From NCBI GenBank assembly GCA_947169815.1, contig CAMVRG010000004.1, positions 1-35,764 of the forward strand: a stretch of 35,764 nucleotides of DNA. Reading direction: 5' to 3'. Made by a program: the position numbers and the translations under genes. Below, piece after piece: positions 13,095 to 31,903 of the stretch; positions within the stretch are counted from its first letter, which is position 1, and every line of letters begins with the position of its first letter. The notes under the pieces were generated by a model, which ran no database searches, was not told where the DNA came from, and saw nothing but the letters and a program-made list of their open reading frames with translations. This DNA is from an uncultured Clostridia bacterium (GTDB lineage: Bacteria; Bacillota; Clostridia; Oscillospirales; Acutalibacteraceae).

Positions 13095-13123
13095 GAGTTC
13101 TTATGAAAATCGACTGCTTTCTA

Positions 13124-13152
13124 TTGAAGTTTCTGTTTTTAAATGGTATATT
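13124..13152 (+). promoter_or_regulatory. Sigma-A-like promoter for S8 peptidase gene
   Basis: TTGAAG-N17-TATATT. Confidence 0.65.
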
Positions 13153-13237
13153 AATTTTAGAAAAATGCAAAAAAATATGTAATATTTTGCTGATTTCAGG
13201 TACTTATATACAGAAGGATTATTTAAGGAGAATAAGT

Positions 13238-16972: not shown

Positions 16973-16977
16973 AATAA

Positions 16978-17007
16978 AAAAAGCTGACTCGCTGAGTCAG
17001 CTTTTTA
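16978..17007. terminator. Intrinsic terminator of S8 gene; contains the stop codon of the convergent gene
   Basis: AAAAGCTGACTC-GCT-GAGTCAGCTTTTT. Confidence 0.8.
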
Positions 17008-17755
17008 TTATAAGGGATATTATAAACAGTACGGCGTAAATTACGGGCTGGTGCGCGAGGTAAAACCATAGCGAATTGCGTCCGACGAAGGAAAAGAACC
17101 TGCTGCGCTTTTTATAAGTCCATTTAGGAAAGGCTCCGTCGGCGGCGTATTTTCCGAGGAACGCGCCGAAGAGGAACATAAACAGCCATGGGATTATTCC
17201 GAAATAATCGGCGCTGTAAAACGATGGGCTGTACAGACCGAGAGGCGCGAGAAGATTTGTATTAACCTCGGGAAGCTTAATAAGCCCGAAGAGGAGCGAG
17301 CCCGCGCTGACAGAATAGAATACGGCGAAAAGCAGAACGCTTATAAGCATACCGATAATCGGATTTATCTTTTTTATCAGCGGCATAAGGAGTCCCGTAA
17401 TTATCATACAGCAGCCGAGACAGTGAAGAATACCGAAGTATATTTCCGCTCCCGTAATTCCCAATAGCGGCATAATTACCGCCGTTACAAGCGTTACCGC
17501 GAGCCCCGCGCCGAGAACGACCAGCCCTCTTTTAAGCGTATTTCGTGAAAGACGCGAGCATATTCCCGAAATTATAATAAATATAGCCCAGAAAAACGGC
17601 TGTAAAACACAGAGCTTGTTAAATACCTCTTCTCCCCAGGAAAGCCCGAGGAAGAAGCCGATATCGAGGAAGGTATGATGTATTATCATAGCGATAATAG
17701 CGAAGCCGCGAAGCTCGTCTAAAAGCTCTATTCTCTTTTTTTCGTTTTTCGCCAT
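16997..17755 (-). CDS. DUF1624 / heparan-alpha-glucosaminide N-acetyltransferase-like membrane protein
   Basis: 252 aa, multi-TM; RIELLDELRGFAIIAMIIHHTFLDI...FVGRNSLWFYLAHQPVIYAVLF. Confidence 0.85.
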   Translation of the reverse strand: MAKNEKKRIELLDELRGFAIIAMIIHHTFLDIGFFLGLSWGEEVFNKLCVLQPFFWAIFIIISGICSRLSRNTLKRGLVVLGAGLAVTLVTAVIMPLLGITGAEIYFGILHCLGCCMIITGLLMPLIKKINPIIGMLISVLLFAVFYSVSAGSLLFGLIKLPEVNTNLLAPLGLYSPSFYSADYFGIIPWLFMFLFGAFLGKYAADGAFPKWTYKKRSRFFSFVGRNSLWFYLAHQPVIYAVLFIISLIIKS

Positions 17756-17806
17756 AGCTTACCTCCCCGTTGTTATTATTTATTATATTATACTATTTTT
17801 GGCGTA

Positions 17807-17835
17807 TTGTAAATATGAATTTTATGTGGTATATT
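17807..17835 (+). promoter_or_regulatory. Sigma-A-like promoter for GH28 gene
   Basis: TTGTAA-N17-TATATT. Confidence 0.55.
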
Positions 17836-17863
17836 AAGAATAATAAGGTTTGAGAGGTGGAAT

Positions 17864-19240
17864 ATGAAAGAATATAACGTATTGCAGTACGGCGCTAAGG
17901 GCGACGGAAGAGCGAACGACGCGTTCGCTATTCAGCACGCTATCGACGACTGCGCGAAAAACGGCGGCGGAAGAGTCGTTCTTCAAAGCGGAAAGGTCTT
18001 TTACAGCGATTCCGTAAAACTGAGAAAAAATGTTGATTTACATATTCAGAAGGGAGCTACCCTTAAGGCAACCTCAAATATTGACGGATATATAAGACCG
18101 AACAAGCTCATAAACGACCCGAAAACCGCGCTTATCGGAAACCCCGTAACGGGTAAGCCGAGCTTTGTGTTTATCTATGCTTACGACGCTGAAGGCGCTA
18201 TGATAAGCGGCGAGGGAACTATCGACGCTAACGGCCACGCCTTTGTTCAGCGCAAGGACAGATACTACGTTACGGGCGAATTTTACCCGCGCCCGACGGT
18301 AATATATTTTGAAAAAAGCGACCATATAACCTTTAAGGATTTTACGGTTATCGACGCTCCGTTCTGGACGCTTCATCCCGCGGGCTGTAACGACGTTTTA
18401 ATTGATAAAATAAGAATCCTAAACGACCTTGACGTTGCAAACAGCGACGGTATAGACCCCGACCACTGCTCAAACGTAAGAATAACGGGCTGTCATATCG
18501 AATGCGCGGACGACTGTATATGCCTTAAAACAACGAAGGGCAACAGCGAATACGGCGCGTGCGAGAATATAATTATAGATTCGTGCACCCTCGTTTCAAC
18601 CTCGGCGGCGATAAAGATAGGAACTGAGGGAGTCGGGGATTTCAGAAACATCAACGTATCAAACTGTATTATATCCCGTTCAAACAGAGGGCTTTCAATT
18701 CAGATACGCGACGGCGGAAGCGTTGAAAACGTGAGCTATTCAAATATTATGATTGAAACGCGGCGCTTTTGCCCCGACTGGTGGGGAACGGCTGAGCCGA
18801 TAGTAATTACAACCTTTAACCGCGACGAAAACACTAAAAGCGGAAAAATCAGTAATATCCGCTTCTTCAATATCAGCGCAAAGGGCGAAAACGGCGTATT
18901 AATCCACGGAAACGCGGATAATCTTATCGAAAACGTAACCTTTGAAAACTGCTCGGTAACGCTTACAAAGACCTCTAAGTGGCCCTGCGGCGTTTACGAT
19001 TTACGCCCCTGCCTTGAATGGGGAGTTGAAAAGCTTGATAATTCGGCGTTCTTTATAAGATACGCTAAGGATATAACTATAATGAAAACAAAGACCGCGT
19101 GGGGAGAGCTTTGCGAAAGCTATAAGTTCGCCCTTGACGCTGAGAACGTTGAAAATCTCGAGCTTGTAAGATTTGAGGGCGAAGCGGCGGACAGCGGCCT
19201 TGACAGTATAAGACTTAATAACATAAGAATAGTGAGGTAA
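17864..19240 (+). CDS. Glycoside hydrolase family 28 (polygalacturonase-like), no signal peptide
   Basis: 458 aa; YNVLQYGAKGDGRANDAFAIQHAIDDC, SDGIDPDHCSNVRITGCHIECADDCICLKTTKG. Confidence 0.92.
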   Translation: MKEYNVLQYGAKGDGRANDAFAIQHAIDDCAKNGGGRVVLQSGKVFYSDSVKLRKNVDLHIQKGATLKATSNIDGYIRPNKLINDPKTALIGNPVTGKPSFVFIYAYDAEGAMISGEGTIDANGHAFVQRKDRYYVTGEFYPRPTVIYFEKSDHITFKDFTVIDAPFWTLHPAGCNDVLIDKIRILNDLDVANSDGIDPDHCSNVRITGCHIECADDCICLKTTKGNSEYGACENIIIDSCTLVSTSAAIKIGTEGVGDFRNINVSNCIISRSNRGLSIQIRDGGSVENVSYSNIMIETRRFCPDWWGTAEPIVITTFNRDENTKSGKISNIRFFNISAKGENGVLIHGNADNLIENVTFENCSVTLTKTSKWPCGVYDLRPCLEWGVEKLDNSAFFIRYAKDITIMKTKTAWGELCESYKFALDAENVENLELVRFEGEAADSGLDSIRLNNIRIVR

Positions 19241-19245
19241 TAAAA

Positions 19246-19653
19246 ATGGTAGAGCTTTTATCCTTTAAGGTAAACGGTATTACTTTTGAAAACAAGGTTC
19301 CAAACGGTACCGAAATCAAGCTTGCGAAGCAGTTCAGCTATAACGTAAACTATTTCGGCGAGGAAAACCGCTGTCTCGGTATGCTCGATTTCAGAGTGAA
19401 CGACGAGCAGCTCAGACCGTTTTCAATAAGAGTTGAAATTGAGGCGCTTTTCGCCTACGGCGAGGACGACGAGAGAGAGGATATTCACACCGAAAGCTTT
19501 GAACAGATTTTCCCCTTCCTTCGCCAAATTATTCATTCGACAACCGCTATGAGCGGGCTCCCGGGACTTATTATCCCCGCCGTTCATATTGACAAGAACA
19601 ACGTTAAGGTTGCGGATAAACCCGAAGGAGAGGAGAATTCCCCGCTTAACTGA
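19246..19653 (+). CDS. SecB-like chaperone family protein
   Basis: 135 aa; FKVNGITFENKVPNG...CLGMLDFRVNDEQLRPFSIRVEIEALFAYGEDD...FPFLRQIIHSTTAMSGLPGLIIPAVHID resembles the SecB fold. Confidence 0.6.
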   Translation: MVELLSFKVNGITFENKVPNGTEIKLAKQFSYNVNYFGEENRCLGMLDFRVNDEQLRPFSIRVEIEALFAYGEDDEREDIHTESFEQIFPFLRQIIHSTTAMSGLPGLIIPAVHIDKNNVKVADKPEGEENSPLN

Positions 19654-19654
19654 T

Positions 19655-19840
19655 ATGGCTGATTTATGTGAAAACTGCCGTTACAATATCTACGATGAGG
19701 AAGCGGAGGAATATTACTGCGACCTTGAGCTTGACGAGGACGAATACGTAAGCCTTTTAAACGAGCTCGGCCAGGGAAAGAACTGCCGCTTTTTCGCCCC
19801 CGATATTGACGAATACGGAATAGTAAGAAAACAAAACTGA
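19655..19840 (+). CDS. DUF6472-like small Cys-containing protein
   Basis: 61 aa MADLCENCRYNIYDEEAEEYYCDLELDEDEY...GKNCRFFAPDIDEYGIVRKQN; ATG follows the SecB-like stop. Confidence 0.75.
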   Translation: MADLCENCRYNIYDEEAEEYYCDLELDEDEYVSLLNELGQGKNCRFFAPDIDEYGIVRKQN

Positions 19841-19848
19841 ACAAGCGT

Positions 19849-19880
19849 AAAACGCCGTGGATTTTCCACGGCGTTTTTTT
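19849..19880 (+). terminator. Intrinsic terminator
   Basis: AAAACGCCGTGGA-TTT-TCCACGGCGTTTTTTT. Confidence 0.9.
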
Positions 19881-19917
19881 ATTCACGTTTTCGGGGGATA
19901 TGCATAAAACGTGAATA
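19881..19917. repeat. Inverted repeat containing upstream copy of the 19-bp motif
   Basis: ATTCACGTTTT(19881-19891)...AAAACGTGAAT(19906-19916), perfect 11-bp arms. Confidence 0.8.
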
Positions 19918-19978
19918 TTTCGGCGAAAATAAATTTTTTTGCGATTTTTATGGTCCGATTATGCATAAATCGTGAATA
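19899..19978 (+). promoter_or_regulatory. Pair of 19-bp direct repeats upstream of phage-like operon (candidate activator/operator sites)
   Basis: TATGCATAAAACGTGAATA at 19899-19917 and TATGCATAAATCGTGAATA at 19960-19978 (18/19 identical, 61-bp period); candidate -10 TATAGT at 19999-20004 with no good -35. Confidence 0.6.
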
Positions 19979-20056
19979 AAACGCCCCGTTTTTACCCTTA
20001 TAGTGGGAGGACTTTTTCTGAGACCTTCCGTGTAACGGCAAAAAGGAGGAGGTTAA

Positions 20057-20374
20057 ATGCCGAGAAAAACAAAGCTTGAAAAACAGATACAAAACGGGCT
20101 TATTGCCCTTGCGTTCGGAGAGGTGAGCGACGCGGTATCGCTTCTCTATATGAGCGACGAGGAGGCGCTTGAAAAGCTTCCCGAGCTCAATCTGTTTAAC
20201 GTGAGCGAGATTAAAAGACCGAAGGGCGGCGGAATGGAGATTAAATTCTTTGACCGTATTAAGGCGTGCGAAAAGCTGAGAGAGCGCATACCCGAAAAAA
20301 CGCCCGAAAATCTGAGCTTCTACGAGGCTCTTGAAAAAAGCGCTGAAAACACGGGGAGTGTATCCGACAAATGA
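20057..20374 (+). CDS. Short small-terminase-like protein (TerS), apparently without N-terminal HTH
   Basis: 105 aa; C-terminal ...GLIALAFGEVSDAVSLL...NVSEIKRPKGGGMEIKFFDRIKACEKLRERI resembles the C-terminal part of XtmA-like TerS; ATGA overlap with TerL. Confidence 0.6.
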   Translation: MPRKTKLEKQIQNGLIALAFGEVSDAVSLLYMSDEEALEKLPELNLFNVSEIKRPKGGGMEIKFFDRIKACEKLRERIPEKTPENLSFYEALEKSAENTGSVSDK

Positions 20375-21624
20375 AAACATTCAGCAAATTTTCAGAAAAG
20401 CAGATTACGGTCTTAAACTGGTGGTGCAGGACAAGCTCTCTCAGAAACAGAGACGGAATAATCTGTGACGGGGCGGTCAGAAGCGGTAAAACGCTGAGCA
20501 TGTCGCTTTCGTTCATAGCGTGGGCGTTTTACTATTTCGGTGACGTCTCGTTTGCTCTGTGCGGTAAGACTGTCACCTCTCTGAGACGGAATGTTATAAC
20601 GCCTCTTATTCCTCATATTACCTCGCTCGGCTTTGAGGTTGAAGAGAAGGTAAGTAAAAATATGCTCATTATCAAAAGGGGCGGCGTCACTAACCGTTTT
20701 TACCTTTTCGGCGGACGGGACGAAAGCTCCGCTTCGCTTATCCAGGGTATGACCCTGGGCGGCGTTCTTTTTGACGAGGTTGCGCTTATGCCGCGTTCCT
20801 TTGTTGAGCAGGCGCTTGCAAGGTGCTCGGTTGAAAACTCAAAATACTGGTTTAACTGTAACCCTGAGCACCCCTATCATTGGTTTTATAATGAGTGGAT
20901 AAAAAAAGCCGATGAGAAAAATATGCTTTATCTTCATTTCACCATGGACGATAATCCCTCTCTTTCAAAAGCAGTTAAACGCCGTTACGAAAAGCTTTAT
21001 TCAGGCGCGTTTTATGAGCGTTTTATCGAGGGAAAGTGGACCGTGCCCGACGGGCTCGTTTATCCGATGTTTTCAAAGGAAAAGCACATAAAAACGGCGG
21101 ATAATTTCGACTCATACTACCTTTCGTGCGACTACGGAACGGTAAATCCGTTTTCGCTCGGTCTCTGGGGACGAAGCGGCGGGAGCTGGTACAGAATCAA
21201 GGAGTATTACCACGCGTCGCGAGAGGCTGGCGTTCAGCTGACCGACGAGGAATACTACGAAAAGCTTTGCGCCCTCGCAGGCGACAGAGAGATTGAGGCG
21301 CTTATTATCGACCCGTCAGCCGCCTCGTTTATCGAGACTGTAAGACGGCACGGAAAATACAGAGTTATCAAGGCGGATAACGACGTGCTCAAAGGGATTA
21401 ACAGGGTATGCGAGGCGCTGAAAAGCGGCGGGATATTCTTTTCCCCCGAATGTGAGGACACAATCCGCGAGTTTTCCGTCTACCGCTGGGATAACGATAT
21501 AAAACGCGACGCGCCGAAAAAGGAAAACGACCACGCAATGGATGATATAAGATATTTTGTTCAAACTGTGTTAACCTCGGACTGCGATATCGCATACTCC
21601 GTTGCGGTGGAAAGGGAGAATTAG
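20371..21624 (+). CDS. Terminase large subunit (PBSX XtmB-like)
   Basis: 417 aa; Walker A DGAVRSGKTLSMSLSF, Walker B GGVLFDEVALMP, nuclease acidic motifs CDYGTVNPFS, LIIDPSAA, HAMDDIRYF. Confidence 0.95.
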   Translation: MKTFSKFSEKQITVLNWWCRTSSLRNRDGIICDGAVRSGKTLSMSLSFIAWAFYYFGDVSFALCGKTVTSLRRNVITPLIPHITSLGFEVEEKVSKNMLIIKRGGVTNRFYLFGGRDESSASLIQGMTLGGVLFDEVALMPRSFVEQALARCSVENSKYWFNCNPEHPYHWFYNEWIKKADEKNMLYLHFTMDDNPSLSKAVKRRYEKLYSGAFYERFIEGKWTVPDGLVYPMFSKEKHIKTADNFDSYYLSCDYGTVNPFSLGLWGRSGGSWYRIKEYYHASREAGVQLTDEEYYEKLCALAGDREIEALIIDPSAASFIETVRRHGKYRVIKADNDVLKGINRVCEALKSGGIFFSPECEDTIREFSVYRWDNDIKRDAPKKENDHAMDDIRYFVQTVLTSDCDIAYSVAVEREN

Positions 21625-21625
21625 T

Positions 21626-22774
21626 GTGAAAATCTTTAACAAAAACAGAAAAAAGGACGAAACGGCGCCGGCCTCTTCGGCTGTTCAGACGGGCTCGCTG
21701 AGCTCTCATCCGTTTTCGGCTATCTCGGGCTATTCTCCTCTTGCGGGAAGAAACGCCGAGGCGTACAGAATGCTCAGAGAGGGCATACCGATTATCGACA
21801 GCGCAATTAATAAGATTGTAAGGCTTATGGGCGGCTTTGAATTCGTAACGGGAAACGAGGCGCTTGATAAGGAAATCAACGAATATTTCTCTCTTGTCAG
21901 CGTCGGCGGAAACCGTACGGGAATAAACGCCTTTATCGATACGTATGTTGACCAGCTTCTGACCTACGGAAGCGCCGTCGGAGAGATGATATACGACGAG
22001 GGCGACTTTATTGCGCTTTATAACGGAGAGCTTAAAACGCTTGAGGTTAAGAGGTGCGAAAACGGTCTTGATATTGAGTTTTACAATGTATCGGGCGGCT
22101 CTCCCGTGCTTATCAGAGAGCCCGAAAAGCTTCTTTTCAGCGTTTTAAATCCCGAGCCGTCCCGCCTTGAGGGGACAAGCCTTTTAAGAGGACTTCCGTT
22201 TTTCAGCGATATTCTTCTTAAAATCTTTAACACTATCGGCAATAACTGGGAAAGAGCGGGAAACCTCAGGTTCGCGGTAACCTATAATCCCCAGGGAGAG
22301 GGAAGCGGAGGCTTTGCAAAGGAAAGAGCAAATCAGATTGCCTCTGCGTGGCGCGACGCTATGAGCTCTAAGGACTGCATAAAGGATTTCGTTGCGGTAG
22401 GAGACGTTAAGGTAAGCGTCATAGGCGCGGACAATCAGATTCTCGACAGCGAAATTCCCGTAAGGCAGCTTCTTGAACAGATTATTGCAAAGACGGGGCT
22501 TATGCCCTATATGTTCGGGCTTAACTGGTCAACGAGCGAGCGTATGGCGAAGCAGCAGACGGATATTCTCACTACCGAGCTTGAGGCGTACAGGCGTATT
22601 ATTACCCCCGTTTTAAAGAAGATAGGCAATACCTATTTAATGCTCGGCGGAAGAGGCGAGAGCGTTGATATTAAATGGGACGAGATTACGCTTCAGGACG
22701 AGACTGAGCTCGCTCAGGCGAGAGTTTATAACGCCGAGGCTGACAGACTTATAAGGGAGGCTGAAAATGAATAA
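21626..22774 (+). CDS. Phage portal protein
   Basis: ~382 aa from GTG 21626 with RBS gggag; NAEAYRMLREGIPIIDSAINKIVRLMGGF...LLEQIIAKTGLMPYMFGLNWSTSERMAKQQTDILTTELEAYRRIITP. Confidence 0.9.
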   Translation: MKIFNKNRKKDETAPASSAVQTGSLSSHPFSAISGYSPLAGRNAEAYRMLREGIPIIDSAINKIVRLMGGFEFVTGNEALDKEINEYFSLVSVGGNRTGINAFIDTYVDQLLTYGSAVGEMIYDEGDFIALYNGELKTLEVKRCENGLDIEFYNVSGGSPVLIREPEKLLFSVLNPEPSRLEGTSLLRGLPFFSDILLKIFNTIGNNWERAGNLRFAVTYNPQGEGSGGFAKERANQIASAWRDAMSSKDCIKDFVAVGDVKVSVIGADNQILDSEIPVRQLLEQIIAKTGLMPYMFGLNWSTSERMAKQQTDILTTELEAYRRIITPVLKKIGNTYLMLGGRGESVDIKWDEITLQDETELAQARVYNAEADRLIREAENE

Positions 22775-23723
22775 GGGTAAAATTGAAAAAAACTTTACCG
22801 ACAGAAGCGATATTGAAAAAATCAATCTTTTTACGCGAAGGACCCTCAGCGAAGAGGAGGTCTATACCTTTACGATAAGACTCTGCGATAACGAGGTTGA
22901 CAGAGACTTTGAGCGCTTCTCGCTCGATACGCTTAATTCGCTTTGCGCTCTTTTTACGGGTAAGACGGGCATATTCGACCACTCTATGAAAAGCGGCGAC
23001 CAGAAGGCGAGAATCTACTGCGCCTGGGTTGAAAAGCAGGAGGGCGAAAAGACCGAATGCGGCGACGATTTATACTGTCTTAAGGCTAAGGCGTATATGC
23101 TGAGAAGCGAGGGTAACGCCGAGCTTATCGAGGAGATTGAAGCGGGAATTAAAAAGGAGGTTTCCGTTTCGTGTTCGGTTGAAAAGAGCATATGCTCAGT
23201 CTGCGGTAAGGATACAAGGCGCGAGCGCTGTTCCCATATCGCGGGAAACAGGTATAACGGAAAGCTCTGTTACAGAACGCTTGAAGGCGCTAAGGACGCG
23301 TATGAATTCAGCTTCGTCGCCGTACCTGCCCAGAGAGAGGCGGGAGTGACGAAGGCGTTTACTGACAAGGAGGATGTTAATTTGAACGAGGTAATTAATA
23401 CCGTAAAGGGCTGTGAGGGAGACCTTGCCCTATCAAAGAAGGAGGCTAAGGAGCTCTCCTCATATATTGAGGGACTTGAGGAAAACGCAAGGCTCTCAGA
23501 GGAGTATAAGGACGAGCTTAAAAAAGAGGTTGCCCGTCAGCTTATGAAAAGCCTGCCCGATATTGACAGAGAGATTGTTTCCTCTGTTACGGCGGTAATG
23601 ACCTTTAAGGAGCTCAAGGGCTTTAAGGATTATTTTTCAAAAAGCAGAAAGGCTCCTCAGCCGCAGATTATGAACGATAAAAAGGCGGCTGAAAAGAAAA
23701 ACTATTCACATTTCAGAATTTAG
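22767..23723 (+). CDS. Prohead protease fused to scaffold-like coiled-coil C-terminus
   Basis: 318 aa; GIFDHSMKSGDQKARIY, KEVSVSCSVE, Zn-knuckle-like CSVCGKDTRRERCSH, DAYEFSFVAVPAQ; then Glu/Lys-rich helical tail. Confidence 0.8.
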   Translation: MNKGKIEKNFTDRSDIEKINLFTRRTLSEEEVYTFTIRLCDNEVDRDFERFSLDTLNSLCALFTGKTGIFDHSMKSGDQKARIYCAWVEKQEGEKTECGDDLYCLKAKAYMLRSEGNAELIEEIEAGIKKEVSVSCSVEKSICSVCGKDTRRERCSHIAGNRYNGKLCYRTLEGAKDAYEFSFVAVPAQREAGVTKAFTDKEDVNLNEVINTVKGCEGDLALSKKEAKELSSYIEGLEENARLSEEYKDELKKEVARQLMKSLPDIDREIVSSVTAVMTFKELKGFKDYFSKSRKAPQPQIMNDKKAAEKKNYSHFRI

Positions 23724-23732
23724 GAGGAAAGT

Positions 23733-24083
23733 ATGGAGAGAATTTCATTTCAGGGATATAACAATAACTACGCTACCTTTAAAATCAGCGGAACCGTGAA
23801 AAACGGTTACGCCGTAAGCCTTGACGAAAACGGCTTATGCGTTAAAGGCTCAGAGGGAAATCCGATTTTAGGTTTCTGCGTCGGAGTCAGAGGAAGCTAC
23901 GCAACCGTTCAGCTTCAGGGATATTATGAGTGCGGATTCACGGGAGATGTTCCCGAGTACGGTATAAACAAGCTCGTTTATGACGGAAACAGCGGAGTAG
24001 CCGTAGCAGAGGATACAGAGGGAACCTGCGTTAAGGTCGTTAAAATCGACGAAGATAACAGTACGGTCGGATTTATTTTTTAA
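23733..24083 (+). CDS. Capsid decoration/head fibre-like protein
   Basis: 116 aa all-beta protein between protease and MCP genes (positional plus composition). Confidence 0.5.
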   Translation: MERISFQGYNNNYATFKISGTVKNGYAVSLDENGLCVKGSEGNPILGFCVGVRGSYATVQLQGYYECGFTGDVPEYGINKLVYDGNSGVAVAEDTEGTCVKVVKIDEDNSTVGFIF

Positions 24084-24096
24084 GGAGGAAGGATAA

Positions 24097-25089
24097 ATGG
24101 CATTTGATAACATTAAGCTCGAAAAGGGGCTTTACACTACGAGCAAGGGCTTTACAAAAACGCTTGAGGAGCTTGACCCGAGCGAAAACTACGTAGGCAC
24201 CGAGCTTGAGGGACTTGACGCATATCAGCGTCAGCTCAAAAGATTTAATATCAAGGTTACGGGAAACGATTCCGACACGGTTGAAAAGTTTTTCGCTACC
24301 TCAACGTCATCGGTTCTCTTCCCGGAATATGTATCGCGCGCGGTACGTACGGGCATTGAACAGAGCGACGCGCTTTCCAAGCTTATTGCAACAACTACCA
24401 ATATCGATTCGCTTGATTACAGAGCGATTGAGGTAACCTCAAATCAGGACGATATCGGTCTTGCCAACGTAGGCGAGGGAGCGTTTATTCCCGAGGCGGT
24501 AATAAAGACTAAGACAAGTCTTACTAAACTTACAAAGCGCGGAAGAATGCTTGTTGCGTCTTATGAGGCAATCAAGTTTCAGAGACTTGACCTCTTTACG
24601 ATTATGCTTTCGCAGATAGGCGCGTCAATCGCACGCGACCAGCTTATTGACGCTTGTAATGTTCTTAATTCCTGCGGCGCGGCTACGGTAGCTAAGGACG
24701 ACCCGAGCGACCTTACATACGAGGATATCGTTACGCTCTGGAACGCGTTTTCGCCCTACAATATGAATACACTTATCTGTTCGGGCGACGTTCTTAAAAA
24801 GCTTCTTACAATGAGTGAATTCAGAGATTCAAACGCGGGACTTAACTTCCACGCTACGGGCTCGCTTATTACTCCGCTCGGCGCAGAGCTTGTAAGAGTA
24901 GACGGAGCGGATAACGGCGACAAGATGATAGGTCTTGACAGAGGCTACGCGCTTGAAAAGGTTCAGGCGGGAGAGGTTTTAACCGACTTTGACAAGCTTA
25001 TCGACAGACAGCTTGAAAGAGCTGCCGTTACGGAGATTTCGGGCTTCTCGCCTATCTTTAACAGCGCCGTAAAATATATGGAAGGCTAA
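24097..25089 (+). CDS. Major capsid protein (HK97-fold, P2/PBSX-like)
   Basis: 330 aa; FATSTSSVLFPEYVSRAVRTGIEQSDALSKLIATTTNIDSLDYRAIEV...GEGAFIPEAVIKTKTSLTKLTKRGRMLVASYEAIKFQRLD. Confidence 0.9.
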   Translation: MAFDNIKLEKGLYTTSKGFTKTLEELDPSENYVGTELEGLDAYQRQLKRFNIKVTGNDSDTVEKFFATSTSSVLFPEYVSRAVRTGIEQSDALSKLIATTTNIDSLDYRAIEVTSNQDDIGLANVGEGAFIPEAVIKTKTSLTKLTKRGRMLVASYEAIKFQRLDLFTIMLSQIGASIARDQLIDACNVLNSCGAATVAKDDPSDLTYEDIVTLWNAFSPYNMNTLICSGDVLKKLLTMSEFRDSNAGLNFHATGSLITPLGAELVRVDGADNGDKMIGLDRGYALEKVQAGEVLTDFDKLIDRQLERAAVTEISGFSPIFNSAVKYMEG

Positions 25090-25092
25090 GAT

Positions 25093-25452
25093 ATGATAAG
25101 CTACGAGGAGGTCAAGGCGTGTTTACTCTCAATCACGCACACCGACAGCGAAACGCTTGAAAGCAAAAGAACGCTTATTGAAAACGCTATCAGCTTTGTT
25201 GAAAAGCTTACAAGGGGATATACCGGGGACGACAGGGACAGAGTAATTCTTCTTGCTGCGGCAAGGGCCAATTACTACATAACGCTTCTCGATTCCGATG
25301 AAAACGGAATAACCTCCTTCAAGGCGGGCGACGTGAGCTTTACAAAAGGTAAGGGAAGCGCCGCCGAAAGCGCAAAGGCGTTTTACGAAAGCGCTCTCGC
25401 GGAGAGCGCAGACTTAGTAAAAAGCACGGATTTTGTTTTTAAAGCGGTTTAA
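25093..25452 (+). CDS. Head-tail connector (gp6-like)
   Basis: 119 aa helical protein after MCP; TLIENAISFVEKLT...VILLAAARANYYITLLDSD. Confidence 0.6.
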   Translation: MISYEEVKACLLSITHTDSETLESKRTLIENAISFVEKLTRGYTGDDRDRVILLAAARANYYITLLDSDENGITSFKAGDVSFTKGKGSAAESAKAFYESALAESADLVKSTDFVFKAV

Positions 25453-25460
25453 TTATTTTT

Positions 25461-25484
25461 CTCCCTCTGCTGCGGCAGAGGGAG
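25461..25484 (+). other. Perfect 10-bp-stem hairpin in the largest intergenic gap of the phage-like operon
   Basis: CTCCCTCTGC-TGCG-GCAGAGGGAG; not followed by a T-tract. Confidence 0.8.
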
Positions 25485-25499
25485 AGTCAGGAGGGTTCA

Positions 25500-25868
25500 G
25501 TGAATTATTCAAACATAATTAAGGCTCAGCTCAGAATTGCGGGGAAGCCCTTCACGGTAACCGACGGGGAGGAAAACCAGAGCGGCTGGGCGGTTATCGA
25601 ACAGACGTGGAGAAAAAACAAATCGCGTTTTGAGGAAAACTCAAGCAAAATCGGAAGATATTACAGGGATTACTATAACTATATAGGTCCCTTTGATATT
25701 GATATTAAGGCGCTTAGCGAAAACGCGGTTGTAACCGTTGCCGACGAGAAATTCTATTTCGTTCAGAAGGAGAGAGTTTCAACGGGCGGTTATACGCAGT
25801 ATTACAGAGGAATTCTTAAAAGAGCTGAGGAGGGCGATATAAATGTATTTGAACCTGATAACGGATAA
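25500..25868 (+). CDS. Head closure / connector-like phage protein
   Basis: 122 aa from GTG; RBS aggagg; position as in PBSX-type modules. Confidence 0.5.
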   Translation: MNYSNIIKAQLRIAGKPFTVTDGEENQSGWAVIEQTWRKNKSRFEENSSKIGRYYRDYYNYIGPFDIDIKALSENAVVTVADEKFYFVQKERVSTGGYTQYYRGILKRAEEGDINVFEPDNG

Positions 25869-26259
25869 GGTTTACAGAACTTTAAAGGAGTACGGCGCGC
25901 TCTCAGAGTGTGCAATAATAAAGGCGTTTCCGTATGCAAAGAAGCCGACAAGACTTACCCGTACGGTGATTACCGTTTCTCCCGGGGGCGCGCTTCTTAA
26001 TAATACTGCGCTCGGGGAGGAGTGCGCGTTCGGTGAGTTTTCGGTAAATATTAATATATTTACTCCTCAGGAGCAGGGCAGCCCCGCGGATAACGGAACG
26101 CTCGATACTGTAACTCAGGCGCTTCTTCCCCTTGAGCCGATAAGAATAAAAACGGGAGGCTTTGACGGGAACGACATGCTCGGCGCGTTTGAGGCGCAGT
26201 GTACGGCGGTTTTCAGCGATATATTAAGTACGGAGGACAACAGTAATGAAGGAAACTGA
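25843..26259 (+). CDS. Tail terminator/completion-like protein
   Basis: 138 aa, position after connectors; RTVITVSPGGALLNNTALGEE...FSVNINIFTP. Confidence 0.5.
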   Translation: MYLNLITDKVYRTLKEYGALSECAIIKAFPYAKKPTRLTRTVITVSPGGALLNNTALGEECAFGEFSVNINIFTPQEQGSPADNGTLDTVTQALLPLEPIRIKTGGFDGNDMLGAFEAQCTAVFSDILSTEDNSNEGN

Positions 26260-26362
26260 CAACAGCGAAAGAGAGCTTACCTCTGAGGAGGTCAGAGAGC
26301 TCAGCGACAGAATTTTTCTCGATTCAAGGCGGTATGATTACAGCGGAGGTGATTCTCAGTGA
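26246..26362 (+). CDS. 38-aa small ORF at the position where sheath/tube/tape-measure genes are expected
   Basis: ATG...TGA: MKETDNSERELTSEEVRELSDRIFLDSRRYDYSGGDSQ; overlaps both neighbouring genes in the coupled manner of the rest of the operon. Confidence 0.6.
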   Translation: MKETDNSERELTSEEVRELSDRIFLDSRRYDYSGGDSQ

Positions 26363-26874
26363 AATGTATAAAAATGAGCTACAAGGGGTTTGAATTTCCC
26401 GTAAACGTTAAGAGCATAAATGCAAGCTTTTCAAAGAATATTAGCACGCTCCCGATACCTAAAAGAAGTGCCCGGGCGCAGGAAATCTGTTTTAACCCGA
26501 CGGTAATAAGCGGGAGCGGGTATTTCGCGGGGGAAAACGCAAACGAGAGGGCGCATATGCTTATGACTGCTTTTCAGAGCAGGGGAGCGGCGTATCTTTT
26601 CTCGCCTCTGTTTTCACCGATGAAAGTGTTCTTCAGCGATTTAAAGCTTTCGGCGGATTCGGCGGAAAACAGAATTGAATACTCATTTACCTTCGTTGAG
26701 GAGGTAAACTCAAAACGCAGGCGCTACGATTTCGGCTACACCTTCGCGCTTCCCGATGAGAACCTTTACGATATCGCAAACCGATGCGGAGTTAAGATTG
26801 AGGAGATTGTCGGGGCGAATGAGTGCAGGGATTTATTCTCGGTAAACGAGGGGGATAAAATATGGCTGAACTGA
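26359..26874 (+). CDS. Baseplate hub protein with C-terminal LysM (XkdP-like)
   Basis: 171 aa from GTG; GSGYFAGENANERAHMLMTAFQ...GAAYLFSPLFSPMKVFFSDLKLS; LysM-like YDIANRCGVKIEEIVGANECRDLFSVNEGDKIWLN. Confidence 0.75.
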   Translation: MKCIKMSYKGFEFPVNVKSINASFSKNISTLPIPKRSARAQEICFNPTVISGSGYFAGENANERAHMLMTAFQSRGAAYLFSPLFSPMKVFFSDLKLSADSAENRIEYSFTFVEEVNSKRRRYDFGYTFALPDENLYDIANRCGVKIEEIVGANECRDLFSVNEGDKIWLN

Positions 26875-27806
26875 GTTTCAGGCTTTATTCCGAAACGGGG
26901 GAAGCCATTTCTCCCGAAAGGATAATCTCATACGAGCTTTCCTCCTCGGTATCGGCGCCCTGCGACGGGCTGAGACTGAGCTGGCTTTCGGATTCTTCGC
27001 CTTTTGAATTATCAAGAGCGGAAGCATATATAGACGGCGGGCTGATATTCAGCGGCTATTGCGACACTCAGCGCGAGGAAAACGCTCCCGATGGCGTAAA
27101 ATGCTTTATCTACGCGCGCTCCTCCGCCTGTATTTTAACGGATAACGAGGCTCAGCCCTGCACCTATGACGCGCCGACGGCAAGGTCGCTATTTAAAATC
27201 AACGCCGAAAAATACGGCTTTGAGTTTTTAATGAAGGATGTGTCGTGCGAGGGTAAATATACCGTAAGAAAGGGCTGTTCGTGCTACTCGGCTATTAACC
27301 GTCTTGTCTCTTACGTATGCGGTAAAAATATAACCGTTACTCCCGACGGAAGACTGACCGTTTCGGGCTCAGACGAAGTATGTGAAATAGATAAGGACAA
27401 GGTTATAACGCTTAAAAAAACGGTTAACAGAGGCGCGCCGCTTTCCGAAATTGATTACAAGACCTCGTCGGATTCCTCATATATGCGCCATATCAAAAGC
27501 AGGTATTTTGAGCGCAGGGGAATTATAAGAACGAAAAAGGTCAATTTGTCCTCGCTTTTTGACTGGGAGAGAGGAATCGAGCTTAAAAAAATGCTGAGAG
27601 ACGCGGCGTCGGAATATGAAAAACTCGAGCTTACGCTGACGGGCGCTCTGGAGATTAAGATGTATGACGAAGTTGATTATTCGGAATATGAAACAAACGG
27701 ATACTATACCGCCTCGATTCTCCGTATTCTTGATAAAAACGGCGAGAGAACGGTAATAACGCTCCTGAAAGAACACGATTTGGAGGAGATTATGTATGTG
27801 GATTAG
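26862..27806 (+). CDS. Phage late-control D / hub protein (XkdQ-like)
   Basis: 314 aa; RSLFKINAEKYGFEF...YSAINRLVSYVCGKNITVTPDGRLTVSGSDE. Confidence 0.75.
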   Translation: MAELSFRLYSETGEAISPERIISYELSSSVSAPCDGLRLSWLSDSSPFELSRAEAYIDGGLIFSGYCDTQREENAPDGVKCFIYARSSACILTDNEAQPCTYDAPTARSLFKINAEKYGFEFLMKDVSCEGKYTVRKGCSCYSAINRLVSYVCGKNITVTPDGRLTVSGSDEVCEIDKDKVITLKKTVNRGAPLSEIDYKTSSDSSYMRHIKSRYFERRGIIRTKKVNLSSLFDWERGIELKKMLRDAASEYEKLELTLTGALEIKMYDEVDYSEYETNGYYTASILRILDKNGERTVITLLKEHDLEEIMYVD

Positions 27807-28155
27807 CAGAATGCTTGCGAAAAACCACGAAAGCGAAAAGGCGCAGAGCGGATACATAAGTATGAGCAACGGCGGAGAGCTTGAGGCGGGCTCAACCGTT
27901 AACGCAAGGGGAATAAAAGCGTATTCTCCCTACGGATATTCGGCTGCGGTTCCCGTCGGCGAGGAGGTAATTCTCGTTCCCTCGGCGGAGGGACAGGCTA
28001 TTCTCGGGACGAGAGAAGGCGGCGCCTCGCTCCCCCAGGGAGAGGTCGAAATCTCTTCAAAGGGAGGAGCGAAAATTCTTCTTAAAAATGACGGAACGGT
28101 CATTATCAACGGACATTATGTAATTAACAAAGAGGGTGAGGTATCAGTTGTATAA
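27796..28155 (+). CDS. Baseplate spike/assembly protein (Mu gp45/gpV-like)
   Basis: 119 aa; GIKAYSPYGYSAAVPVGEEVILVPSAEGQAILGTREGGASLPQGEVEISSKGGAKILLKNDGTVIINGHYVINKEGE. Confidence 0.8.
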   Translation: MWISRMLAKNHESEKAQSGYISMSNGGELEAGSTVNARGIKAYSPYGYSAAVPVGEEVILVPSAEGQAILGTREGGASLPQGEVEISSKGGAKILLKNDGTVIINGHYVINKEGEVSVV

Positions 28156-28477
28156 GCTAATTGACGGCGAGTATGTAAAGGACGGCGGGGAGCTCTTAAC
28201 GGTTGAATATATTGAAGCGCTTTTACAGAATATTTCCCTCATACTACATGCCGAAAGGGGAAAATTTTACCCCGACAAAGATTTCGGAAGCCGTATAAGG
28301 GAGATAAAAAGAGAGCCGTTTGAGGAATATGCGGCGGCATATATAAGACAGGCGCTTTACGGTCTTGACGGAGTATTCGTAAAGAGCGTGAAGAAAAACG
28401 GAAATGAAATAACTGTAAGTCTTACTATCAACAATGAGGACAGAGAGGTGGTTTTACCATTTGAAAATGACATATGA
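28148..28477 (+). CDS. Baseplate wedge gp25/GpW-like (XkdS-like)
   Basis: ~109 aa; SLILHAERGKFYPDKDFGSRIREIKREPFEEYAAAYIRQALYGLDGVFVKSV. Start TTG 28148 or GTG 28136. Confidence 0.8.
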   Translation: MYKLIDGEYVKDGGELLTVEYIEALLQNISLILHAERGKFYPDKDFGSRIREIKREPFEEYAAAYIRQALYGLDGVFVKSVKKNGNEITVSLTINNEDREVVLPFENDI

Positions 28478-29522
28478 TACTATACTCGGCGAAATGAAAA
28501 ACGCGTTTTTTGAAAAATGCGGAGAAAATGTTGAAAAATACAGCGAGCTGAGCGCTCGCTTTGAGGCGGTCGCAAGCGAAATGTACTCTCTTTTCTGCGG
28601 CTGTGAATTCGTATTAAAGCAGGCGTTTCCCCAGACGGCGAGCGGCTCATATCTCGACTTTCATGCAAGGCTCAGGGGCGCCGAAAGGAAGGCGGCTTCA
28701 AAAGCGAGAGTAATGCTTACTTTCAGCCTTGGCGAGCTCAGCGAAACGGATACCGTAATAGACGGCGGCTGTATCTGCGCCTCGAAAAACAATCCGTTCA
28801 TCCAGTTCGTTACGCTTGAAAGCGCGGTAATTCCCGCGGGAGAACTCAGCGTAACAACCGAAGCCGAGGCGGCGGAATGCGGCGGCTCATATAATGTTAA
28901 GGCGGGCGAGGTCACGGTAATAGTTAACCCTCCGCTTACGGTCGCCGCAGTAACTAACGCCGCTCCCCACGCTTTCGGCTTTGAAGCGGAGAGCGACTCA
29001 AGGCTGAGAAAACGAATTCTTTCGGCTTACAGTATTCCGAGCACGGGCTTTTCGGCGGACTCGCTGAGAGAGTCGGTTCTCGCTATTGACGGGGTGCTTG
29101 ACTGCAGTGTGTCTGAGAGAAACAATACCGCAGTAGTCTCTCTTAAGACTGCCGACGGAGAAATAAGCGAGGCGCTCAGGGAGGAAATCGGCGACAAACT
29201 GTACATAGCCGATATTTTCGGATTTAACAAGGAAATCAACTTAGCCCGAAAGCGCGACTGCGCGCTCAGAATAAGCGTTAAATGCAGCGTCAGCGAGTTT
29301 GAAAGAATCGAAGAAGAAGTGAAGGATAAGGTTAAGGAAATTACAGAGTCGCTTCTTATAGGCGAAAGTCTCGTTCTCTCTTCTCTTTCATATGCGGTAT
29401 TTACCGTAGACGGAGTTGAATTCTGTGAGGTTACAAGCGCTGACGCCGTTGACGGAATAGTCGTATGCTCTTCTGACGAATTTCTCACTTTTGACAGTAT
29501 TGAGGTAAGCTGTTATGAATAA
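28461..29522 (+). CDS. Baseplate J-like protein (XkdT/gp47-like)
   Basis: ~353 aa; GSYLDFHARLRGAERKAASKARVMLTFSL...FGFEAESDSRLRKRILSAYSIPSTGFSADSLRESVLAIDGVLDCSV. Start TTG 28461 or ATG 28467. Confidence 0.85.
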   Translation: MKMTYDTILGEMKNAFFEKCGENVEKYSELSARFEAVASEMYSLFCGCEFVLKQAFPQTASGSYLDFHARLRGAERKAASKARVMLTFSLGELSETDTVIDGGCICASKNNPFIQFVTLESAVIPAGELSVTTEAEAAECGGSYNVKAGEVTVIVNPPLTVAAVTNAAPHAFGFEAESDSRLRKRILSAYSIPSTGFSADSLRESVLAIDGVLDCSVSERNNTAVVSLKTADGEISEALREEIGDKLYIADIFGFNKEINLARKRDCALRISVKCSVSEFERIEEEVKDKVKEITESLLIGESLVLSSLSYAVFTVDGVEFCEVTSADAVDGIVVCSSDEFLTFDSIEVSCYE

Positions 29523-30081
29523 TTCGTTTGATAGAATGAAAAAGCTCCTTGAGGGAATCGGGCTTTCGTTTAACGAGGGCGGTATTTCCTGCGCCGAGCT
29601 TTACGCTTACGCAAGAGGACTCGCGCTGATAGACGAGAGCATTGCGAGGACTGAGAGTATTGTTTTTATGAGCGGCGAGGATAAGGAAACGCTTGCGAGA
29701 TATGCGGATATGCTCGGCATTGACAGAGAAAGGTTTACCGCAGAGGAACTTAAGGCAGAGATAGAAGAACGCCTTTCGGCGGGCTTTTCAGAGTGCTCGG
29801 TTTCTCAGGCACAAAGAGCGTTTTCGCTTATCGGCTCGGGTAGTATATCCTTTTCGGCCGACGAGGCTTGTCTTAACGGAGTAAAGCTTGAGGATTTATA
29901 TGAGGCTTCAAAATATCTTCACGCCTTTACGCCGTATTTTACTAACTGGATATATTCGGGTGAGGGCGAGAGGCTTACCTTTGATATGAGAGAATCGCTC
30001 TCACTCTCGTTTAACGATTTTGACAGATACAGTTTTACGTTTACTTTTTTAGACAGTTTAAGGAGTGATATTTTTGAGTAG
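29515..30081 (+). CDS. YmfQ/DUF2313-like tail protein
   Basis: 188 aa between gpJ-like and fibre genes; EELKAEIEERLSAGFSECSVSQAQRAFSLIGSG. Confidence 0.6.
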   Translation: MNNSFDRMKKLLEGIGLSFNEGGISCAELYAYARGLALIDESIARTESIVFMSGEDKETLARYADMLGIDRERFTAEELKAEIEERLSAGFSECSVSQAQRAFSLIGSGSISFSADEACLNGVKLEDLYEASKYLHAFTPYFTNWIYSGEGERLTFDMRESLSLSFNDFDRYSFTFTFLDSLRSDIFE

Positions 30082-30550
30082 TTCCGAAAAAACGGGAAAT
30101 CTTCATTTATCAAAATGGCTCGGCAGCGACGTCCCTGAAAGGCTTGATTTCGTTGCGGACAACGTTCTTATTGACGCCGCAGTTACAAGCCACCGCAATA
30201 ACGACGATATTCACGTTACCGCGGTTGATAAGATGAAGTGGAACGCTCCGTACTATATAGATACCTATATGGGAAACGGGGCGGCTTCGAGAACGGTTAC
30301 GCTTACCTCGGGCTTTGACCCGAGCTGGGGAATTATATTCCCCGTAAACAGAGTTATGGGAAAAACCGACTTTTCAAACGAAGCTCATTACAACTATTTT
30401 GGTTTTATTTCAACAGAGGGCTCGACTACGGGCGTAGACATCGACGGACGCACGCTTACGGTTACCCAGTCCGCCATACCCGTATCGGGAAACGAGTATA
30501 GAAACTATAACGAAAACGGCGTAACATATATTTATATTTTATTCAGATAA
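30074..30550 (+). CDS. Short tail-fibre-like protein
   Basis: ~158 aa from TTG 30074; NLHLSKWLGSDVPERLDFVADNVLIDAAVTSHRNNDDIHVTAVDKMKWN typical of Firmicutes tail-fibre N-termini. Confidence 0.75.
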   Translation: MSSSEKTGNLHLSKWLGSDVPERLDFVADNVLIDAAVTSHRNNDDIHVTAVDKMKWNAPYYIDTYMGNGAASRTVTLTSGFDPSWGIIFPVNRVMGKTDFSNEAHYNYFGFISTEGSTTGVDIDGRTLTVTQSAIPVSGNEYRNYNENGVTYIYILFR

Positions 30551-30586: not shown

Positions 30587-30664
30587 CTATGTAATTTATG
30601 ATTTACGACAGGAAAATTTTTCTGTTATTGTAAATTGATGATTGCGGTGAAAGAGGTAAAGAAT

Positions 30665-31903
30665 ATGGCGGTATTCAAAGCGTTTAAAGCGTTCAGACCG
30701 AGCAGGGAATGCGGCGATAAAATCCCCGCGCTTCCGTATGATGTAATGAACAGCGACGAGGCGAGAGAGATGGTAAAGGGCAATCCGCTTTCGTTTCTTC
30801 ACGTAGACAAGGCGGAGATAGATTTAAGCCCTAATATTGACCACTACGCCCCCGAGGTTTACGAAAAGGCGAGAGAAAACCTTATAAGCCTTGAGGAGAG
30901 CGGAAAGCTTATTGAGGACGGTGAAAAATGTCTTTATATCTACCGTCAGGTTATGGGAGGAAGGTCCCAGACGGGAATAGTCGGCTGCGCCTCGGTAGAC
31001 GATTATATCAATAACGTTATCAAAAAGCACGAGCACACGCTCGCAAAAAAGGAGCAGGACAGAATTAATCATGTCGATAAATGCGACGCGAATACGGGTC
31101 CGATTTTTCTTACTTACAGAAACAGCAATAAGATTACCGCAACGGTAAATTCCTGGATAAGAAGCCGTATGCCCGAATACGATTTTAAACAGGGTAATGT
31201 AAACCATACCGTATGGGTAATTGACGACGGCGATGTAATAAAAACGCTTGAAAAAGCGTTTAAAGACGTAAGCTCGCTTTACATAGCCGACGGACACCAC
31301 CGCTGCGCTTCGGCGGTAAGAGTTGCCGAAATGAGAAGGGCTCAGCACCCCGATTACACGGGAAACGAGGAATTCAATTTCTTACTTGCGATTGCATATC
31401 CCGACTCCGAGCTTGAAATTATGGACTACAACAGAGTCGTTAAGGATTTAAACGGACACAGCTTTGAGGAGTATCTTAAGCTCGTTGAAAAATGCTTTAC
31501 GGTTGAAAAGGCGGAGAAGGCGGCGACGCCCGCAAACAAGCACGAATTTCTTATGTTTTATCATAAGCAGTGGTATAAGCTTACCGCCAGGGAGGGTACG
31601 TTTAACGAAAACGACCCCGTAGGACAGCTTGACGTTTCAATTTTACAAAACAACGTTTTAAAGCCGATTCTCGGGATAGATAATCCGAAAACAAGCGACA
31701 GAATTGATTTTATCGGCGGTATAAGAGGACTGAAAGAGCTTGAAAAAAGAGCGCTTACCGATATGGAGCTTGCGTTTGCCATGCACCCGACAACAATCGA
31801 GGACCTTATGAGCATCGCCGACGCGGGAGAGATTATGCCTCCGAAATCCACCTGGTTTGAGCCTAAGCCGCTTTCGGGTATATTCATTCATCATTTAAGT
31901 TAA
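30665..31903 (+). CDS. DUF1015 family protein
   Basis: MAVFKAFKAFRPSRECGDKIPALPYDVMNSDEAREMVKGNPLSFLHVDKAEID; IADGHHRCASAVRVAEM. Confidence 0.92.
   Translation: MAVFKAFKAFRPSRECGDKIPALPYDVMNSDEAREMVKGNPLSFLHVDKAEIDLSPNIDHYAPEVYEKARENLISLEESGKLIEDGEKCLYIYRQVMGGRSQTGIVGCASVDDYINNVIKKHEHTLAKKEQDRINHVDKCDANTGPIFLTYRNSNKITATVNSWIRSRMPEYDFKQGNVNHTVWVIDDGDVIKTLEKAFKDVSSLYIADGHHRCASAVRVAEMRRAQHPDYTGNEEFNFLLAIAYPDSELEIMDYNRVVKDLNGHSFEEYLKLVEKCFTVEKAEKAATPANKHEFLMFYHKQWYKLTAREGTFNENDPVGQLDVSILQNNVLKPILGIDNPKTSDRIDFIGGIRGLKELEKRALTDMELAFAMHPTTIEDLMSIADAGEIMPPKSTWFEPKPLSGIFIHHLS

Follow-up and report, generated by a model that had tools for sequence, protein, structure and literature searches.

How can a phage particle be put together when almost nothing stands between the protein that closes its tail and the proteins of its baseplate? 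This question is raised by a stretch of 35,764 nucleotides (the window, from here on) from an uncultured Clostridia bacterium of the family Acutalibacteraceae, order Oscillospirales (GenBank assembly GCA_947169815.1, contig CAMVRG010000004.1), which carries a cassette of phage-type structural genes. In the gene order of the phage PBSX of Bacillus subtilis, the sheath, tube, chaperone and tape-measure genes lie between the tail terminator and the LysM protein XkdP, which hub and wedge follow, and the slot just ahead of LysM is the tape-measure position. In the window only an open reading frame (ORF) of 38 amino acids, here called ORF38, parts the two, as a sequence-only reading of this DNA had claimed; its coordinates and ORFs are as claimed. 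I consider it reasonably probable that the cassette is a phage structural module that has been domesticated and passed on vertically, most likely building a stub-tailed particle that resembles a gene transfer agent (GTA).

The junction and the missing shaft

The cassette (positions 20057-30550, 10.5 kb) lies on one strand with tightly overlapping genes, in the order small terminase (TerS), large terminase (TerL), portal, probable protease, decoration protein, major capsid protein (MCP), two connectors, terminator, ORF38, LysM protein, hub, spike, gp25, baseplate J, a protein in the position of gpI, and fibre. At the junction, the terminator gene (25843-26259) overlaps ORF38 (26246-26362) by 14 nucleotides, ORF38 runs 4 nucleotides into the LysM gene, which starts with GTG at 26359, and the end of the LysM gene (26874) overlaps the hub gene, which starts at 26862. 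A Shine-Dalgarno-like GGAGG precedes both ORF38 and the LysM gene, and together with the overlaps it leaves no room for hidden coding sequence. None of the cassette ORFs, annotated against Pfam and PHROGs, matches a sheath, tube or tape measure, and a non-homologous tube at the junction is ruled out, as every ORF there is accounted for. The same junction recurs, far more than chance would allow, in about 40 species whose capsid proteins can be as little as about 50% identical.

The missing proteins could act in trans, as the sequence-only reading had also considered for tube and tape measure; a second locus or a resident prophage would then provide them and complete a normal contractile tail. 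Split loci do exist in this order: FpGTA, the gene transfer agent of Faecalibacterium, has a second operon, in one strain about 125 kb off, for its baseplate and lysis genes (PMC12946183). However, whole genomes searched with profiles of the sheath and tube proteins of relatives gave no homologue of either in any of 31 genomes of the window's architecture, its own included, whereas each profile matched in four of four sheath-bearing control genomes. The Pfam sheath family has no match in the window's own genome either. Three of the 31 (those of loci L022, L034 and L051) are of the window's genus and 98-99% complete. The search of the rest of the genome that had been proposed was thus run with sheath and tube profiles and matched nothing, upholding the absence of sheath and tube; supply in trans is left unsupported, and I judge it very improbable, the more so as the terminator has lost the tail by which it would pair with a sheath.

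This loss is seen at the C-terminus of the terminator. The AlphaFold model of 25843-26259 has a predicted local distance difference test (pLDDT) score of 90, and its best solved matches in Foldseek are lambda gpU, the collars of pyocin R2 and diffocin, and phage necks; as the model matches tail terminators rather than tubes, the idea that it is a hidden tube protein was ruled out. In phage XM1 the terminator, gp5, gives a C-terminal strand to the sheath (PMC10457771), and in phage 812 such strand complementation between terminator and sheath is termed a conserved feature of contractile tails (PMC12886913). A C-terminal tail of 16-30 residues is present in all 28 sheath-bearing loci, and it is cut to 1-9 residues in all 46 window-type loci (43 distinct ones, as L155-L157 are apparent second copies of L051, L034 and L022). 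It is likewise 1-9 residues long in seven of the eight loci that have a tube and no sheath, and in the eighth a tube domain is fused at the site of this tail. That the sheath-pairing tail was lost along with it supports a real loss of the sheath, and this co-loss is direct sequence evidence of a particle shaped by life without a sheath.

Relatives and the course of reduction

A related capsid protein was found at 90 loci in the GTDB collection (80 kept) and at 20 in IMG/VR, and four architectures, A to D, were assigned by profile annotation. Type A, for example L056 of Negativibacillus massiliensis and L058 of Marasmitruncus massiliensis, shares with the window homologous TerL, portal, MCP, neck, LysM-type ring protein, hub, wedge and fibre in the same order, but has a sheath, a tube, a chaperone-like protein and a linker of 76-230 amino acids at the junction, so that its genes run from terminator through sheath, tube, chaperone-like protein and linker to the LysM-type ring protein and baseplate. 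The sheath, tube and chaperone-like genes occupy the junction between terminator and LysM gene, and the sheath is typically 331-358 amino acids long (phrog_279 in L041 and L066, E = 3e-15 and 4e-26). Type B has a tube and a baseplate and no sheath; type C, that of the window, has neither sheath nor tube and keeps the baseplate; type D has little or no tail past the neck, and the baseplate J gene is nowhere in six of eight such genomes. Type C labels outside the main clade (L150, L151, L153, L158-L160, L162, L163 and L167) are less secure, because profiles can miss divergent or fused tubes, and were left out of the main claims.

In a tree of TerL, portal and MCP from 69 loci, 40 type C loci form one clade with a Shimodaira-Hasegawa-like approximate likelihood ratio test (SH-aLRT) support of 100, and the architecture changes state only four times overall, a number that shuffled labels never come near; a wider tree of 104 loci shows four changes in the presence or absence of the sheath. 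From the clade-wide state and the few changes it follows that the loss of the sheath in the window's lineage is old and probably single. A unique recent deletion in this strain, which the sequence-only reading had named as grounds for refutation, is rejected, as the state without sheath and tube defines the whole fully supported clade of 40 loci. The shaftless state is stable and clade-wide, and is of wider import than one locus.

The sequence-only reading saw no leftover coding remnant at the junction, and here it has to be corrected: ORF38 is kept throughout the clade, where it shows the motif SE(Y/I)xRLDxKRYD, its ratio of nonsynonymous to synonymous substitution rates (dN/dS) is 0.15 between the window and locus L001, and relatives have a longer homologue of it in the tape-measure slot. 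A profile from 39 rows of the type C clade, run against 37,223 ORFs, has most of its matches beyond the clade in the ORF that immediately precedes the LysM gene. This ORF is 167 amino acids long in sheath-bearing L173 (E = 1.8e-4); further matches fall in L149-L152 and in tube-bearing L027-L030, and weak ones in L176, L179, L180 and L183. Several of these matches are weak taken singly, and it is the shared position that makes the evidence. The counterparts in relatives that have a tube, or tube and sheath, measure 50-230 amino acids, and even the sheath-bearing ones lack a full-length tape measure, with about 76-230 amino acids at that position. The tape measure of XM1 has a length that fits the tube as a continuous helix (PMC10457771). 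At 1.5 A per residue, 38 residues come to about 5.7 nm, and the linkers, ORF38 included, may act as tape measures. For the sheath-bearing loci (L041, L056, L061, L066, L173 and others), the short linker predicts unusually short contractile tails, which for the cultured Negativibacillus massiliensis and Marasmitruncus massiliensis would come to roughly 3-8 rings.

Some relatives have joined tail genes into single proteins. Terminator and tube form one protein in the sheath-less loci L161 (9225-10010), L190 (9127-9945) and L152 (9194-9883; minus strand, in reverse-complement coordinates), and probably in L149, and stopper and tube do so in sheath-less L164 (8854-9582, minus strand, reverse-complement coordinates). 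A fusion of terminator and tube would presumably restrict the tube to one ring, provided that the terminator stays hexameric. In tailless L042 (11678-12517), L074 (11844-12791), L075 (12421-13260) and L193 (9256-10080) the terminator and a fibre-type protein are one polypeptide, and no hub, spike or wedge genes were found at these four loci. Taken over all relatives, the case is evenly balanced for a host-kept, GTA-like lineage that repeatedly dismantled its contractile tail in steps: the sheath would have gone first and the tube shrunk to a single ring, in some relatives by fusion with the terminator, before the tube too disappeared and left the baseplate seated on the neck, as in the window's clade, and elsewhere the whole tail lost, in some with the fibre fused to the terminator.

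A divergent reduced form (L136-L142, L148 and L050) consists of TerS, TerL, portal, protease, capsid, connector, a protein like the N-terminal part of the LysM protein, and hub, followed by host genes; its hosts are Clostridium methylpentosum (DSM 5476 is a cultured strain) and the family that contains a Faecalibacterium-like genus. The cassette is rearranged in L098 and L139, with the protease gene after the capsid gene. L200 (MT835508.1), a 'Bacteriophage sp.' scaffold from Mexican human faeces, carries a type D cassette at 16551-22194 amid chromosomal DNA with ribosomal-protein operons and rnf-like genes; it may stem from a study of DNase-treated virus-like particles (PMC8361208), and packaged host DNA or contamination are both possible.

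From neck to hub

What could hold a baseplate to a neck without a tube? The AlphaFold model of the LysM protein (pLDDT 87, predicted template modelling score, pTM, 0.63) matches in Foldseek the tube-initiator or inner baseplate ring proteins of phiCD508, diffocin, AFP and phage Mu, and the counterpart ring protein in XM1 is a homologue of the tube protein that starts tube polymerisation (PMC10457771). Because of this fold and this homology, a stack of portal, adaptor, stopper, terminator, LysM ring, hub and spike is plausible without any tube protein, and the LysM ring would presumably touch the terminator directly. Alternatively, a short tube of more than one ring might still form, either as a homopolymer of the tube-like LysM N-terminal domain or from another cassette protein. 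This domain does have the tube or initiator fold, and at 1.5 A per residue ORF38 could fix the length at about 5-6 nm; however, relatives with a separate tube protein carry the same LysM gene, so that LysM is not the polymerising tube there, and I find such a tube improbable.

For the stub-tailed particle I propose the following scheme. Sheath and tube were lost in the ancestor of the clade, with ORF38 as the surviving protein of the tape-measure position, its length about enough for one ring. TerS, lacking a DNA-recognition domain, would together with TerL fill a small capsid with cell DNA irrespective of its sequence; the neck of this capsid (portal, adaptor, stopper and terminator) would rest on a single LysM tube-initiator ring, with hub, spike, wedge proteins and a short fibre below it. 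Delivery of the DNA would be podovirus-like, without contraction. That particles form, package DNA nonspecifically and deliver it is what I infer. The short-tailed particle of myovirus baseplate parts that the sequence-only reading foresaw gains strong comparative backing, from the old clade-wide loss, purifying selection, the co-loss of the terminator tail, the retained initiator-type ring and the terminator fusions of relatives, while its structure is itself a prediction.

Selection and function

Could the cassette be nothing but a functionless, decaying prophage remnant? Sheath, tube, lysis, replication and integration genes are absent, which would suit such an origin. However, dN/dS between the window and L001 lies in the range 0.07-0.29 in each gene of the cassette, with synonymous divergence resembling that of flanking genes, and a comparison with L003 agrees (dN/dS up to 0.35); the cassette has no frameshifts, and its operon overlaps are kept. 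By these measures the cassette genes are under purifying selection and vertically inherited. The clade of 40 loci with one architecture speaks against decay as well, and in an evenly drawn sample of the order 71 of 396 genomes have the capsid gene, a figure that rises to 35 of 43 among those of the window's family, with a single copy in nearly every case. Decay seems to me scarcely credible.

A particle may also be made and serve something other than DNA delivery, such as killing, surface binding or an internal compartment. PBSX, which does not deliver its DNA, is a parallel, and the cassette is without lysis or uptake genes. On the other hand, contraction, the usual mechanism of killing, is impossible without a sheath, and the ATPase and nuclease motifs of TerL are kept in 20 of 20 aligned members, fully tailless ones included; I hold this alternative to be unlikely, though less so than the others. 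In TerS the N-terminal helix-turn-helix region is missing in 40 of 40 members of the main type C clade and present in many relatives, by a crude scoring under which some sheath-bearing relatives also lack it.

Several points weigh against a GTA-like particle. The particle, its packaged DNA and any transfer are so far predictions; release must rely on genes elsewhere, as the cassette has no lysis genes; and part of the wedge must serve another role, as the gp25-like protein, of the sheath-initiator family, is kept. The window's genome (an assembly of 1.76 Mb) is 88% complete, though the three more complete genomes of its genus likewise lack sheath and tube. Finally, FpGTA is apparently not homologous, and its tail-less-looking particles lend support by analogy only.

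If particles do form, they would make up a GTA-like family across Oscillospirales, bacteria that are common in gut and rumen. Host DNA has been seen to be packaged in this order, and the loci responsible are mostly unknown outside Faecalibacterium; the present loci are concrete ones at which gene transfer in these taxa can be tested. The series also is a stepwise natural experiment in tail minimisation, on attachment of a baseplate without tube or sheath and on the lower size limit of the protein at the tape-measure position, and if true it would show which tail parts are dispensable for a working DNA-carrying particle.

Comparison with known systems

The cassette combines phage-derived structural and packaging genes at a chromosomal locus, without replication or integration genes, with vertical inheritance and purifying selection (dN/dS, fixed neighbours, one locus clade-wide) and, by the crude pattern above, loss of the TerS DNA-binding domain, all of which are traits of gene transfer agents. 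Borodovich et al. 2026 (PMC12946183) report that gut bacteria of the Ruminococcaceae and Oscillospiraceae prominently package short, random pieces of their chromosomes in the manner of a GTA, and that FpGTA makes 40-nm, tail-less-looking particles with 8.4-8.9-kb DNA. FpGTA belongs to the same GTDB order and resembles the window cassette, itself known from its genes, in having a capsid-packaging operon without replication genes and a TerS without an obvious DNA-binding domain; it differs in its separate second operon for baseplate and lysis. In four genomes of a Faecalibacterium-like genus, the window-family MCP had no match at 1e-10 and TerL no convincing one (best E = 0.008 over 86 residues, in one genome), and homology to FpGTA was set aside on these grounds; the two look like separate elements. 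The genus was recognised through what I take to be the FPR-1 primer site, present in three of the four genomes.

PBSX, a defective phage that packages DNA, shares the gene order around the junction, but has sheath, tube and a long tape measure, where the window has no sheath or tube, 38 amino acids at the tape-measure position and no lysis module. RcGTA of Rhodobacter (Alphaproteobacteria) is likewise a host-kept, vertically inherited capsid cassette, but has a siphovirus-like tail with tube and tape measure. With podoviruses the particle would share a short non-contractile DNA exit, whereas its tail parts are those of a myovirus baseplate (gp25, J, hub and LysM initiator), not a podovirus adaptor and nozzle, and no podovirus-type tail proteins were among the Pfam and PHROGs matches of the cassette. 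This baseplate is myovirus- or PBSX-like, but sheath and tube are absent from locus and genome. From tailocins and contractile injection systems the cassette differs in having capsid genes and no sheath. No earlier description of this element was found in the literature on Clostridia, domesticated sheath prophages, short contractile tails or tape-measure scaling.

Gene content and surroundings

Annotation of the ORFs with Pfam and PHROGs revealed no integrase, replication or lysis genes within the cassette (Table 1). In the window it is flanked by a block of GH28, secB-like and DUF6472 genes on one side and by a DUF1015-type gene on the other; in the majority of the clade, coaX-like and DUF1015 genes, or DUF1015 alone, lie directly downstream, so that the cassette has fixed neighbours of housekeeping type.

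Table 1. Genes of the cassette and its 3' neighbour, in window positions
Feature	Position	Strand	Evidence
Small terminase (TerS), 105 aa, without N-terminal helix-turn-helix region	20057..20374	+	Pfam Terminase_2, profile 66-129/141 only, E=0.0037
Large terminase (TerL)	20371..21624	+	PF03237 3e-13, phrog_2 5e-46; Walker A/B and nuclease Asp motifs intact
Portal	21626..22774	+	phrog_30703 8e-122; longest ORF begins 21602
Probable head maturation protease	22767..23723	+	phrog_16951 1.5e-93 (function unknown); weak match to protease phrog_18299, E=0.0055
Head decoration-type protein	23733..24083	+	phrog_4588 1.6e-13
Major capsid protein	24097..25089	+	phrog_3922 5.5e-83; PF25209 8e-12
Head-tail adaptor (connector 1)	25093..25452	+	phrog_541 E=0.015; position; kept in relatives
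Stopper/head-completion type (connector 2)	25500..25868	+	Position and conservation; without direct database match
Tail terminator without sheath-binding C-terminal strand	25843..26259	+	AlphaFold, Foldseek, tail-length comparison
ORF38, conserved stub of tape-measure-position protein	26246..26362	+	Clade motif, profile matches, dN/dS
Tube-initiator/inner baseplate ring protein with LysM (XkdP/Afp7-like)	26359..26874	+	phrog_16855 3e-8, LysM E=0.007; AlphaFold, Foldseek
Baseplate hub	26862..27806	+	phrog_177 baseplate hub E=1e-4
Spike (small, tail-tip position)	27796..28155	+	phrog_25991 2e-6 (unknown function); position; conserved
gp25-like baseplate wedge (sheath-initiator family)	28136..28477	+	PF10934 4.6e-5 (under curated cut-off), phrog_120 1e-8
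Baseplate J (wedge), probable start 28464	28434..29522	+	PF04865 5.5e-25, phrog_6 7e-46
gpI/XkdU-position baseplate protein	29515..30081	+	Position; conserved
Short tail-fibre-type protein	30065..30550	+	Weak tail-protein matches; conserved C-terminal domain; terminator-fused in tailless relatives
Host gene, DUF1015-type, outside cassette	30635..31903	+	Fixed 3' neighbour in most of clade

Upstream of the cassette, the window encodes at 13103-16972 a secreted subtilisin-like protein of 1289 amino acids, without obvious link to the cassette.
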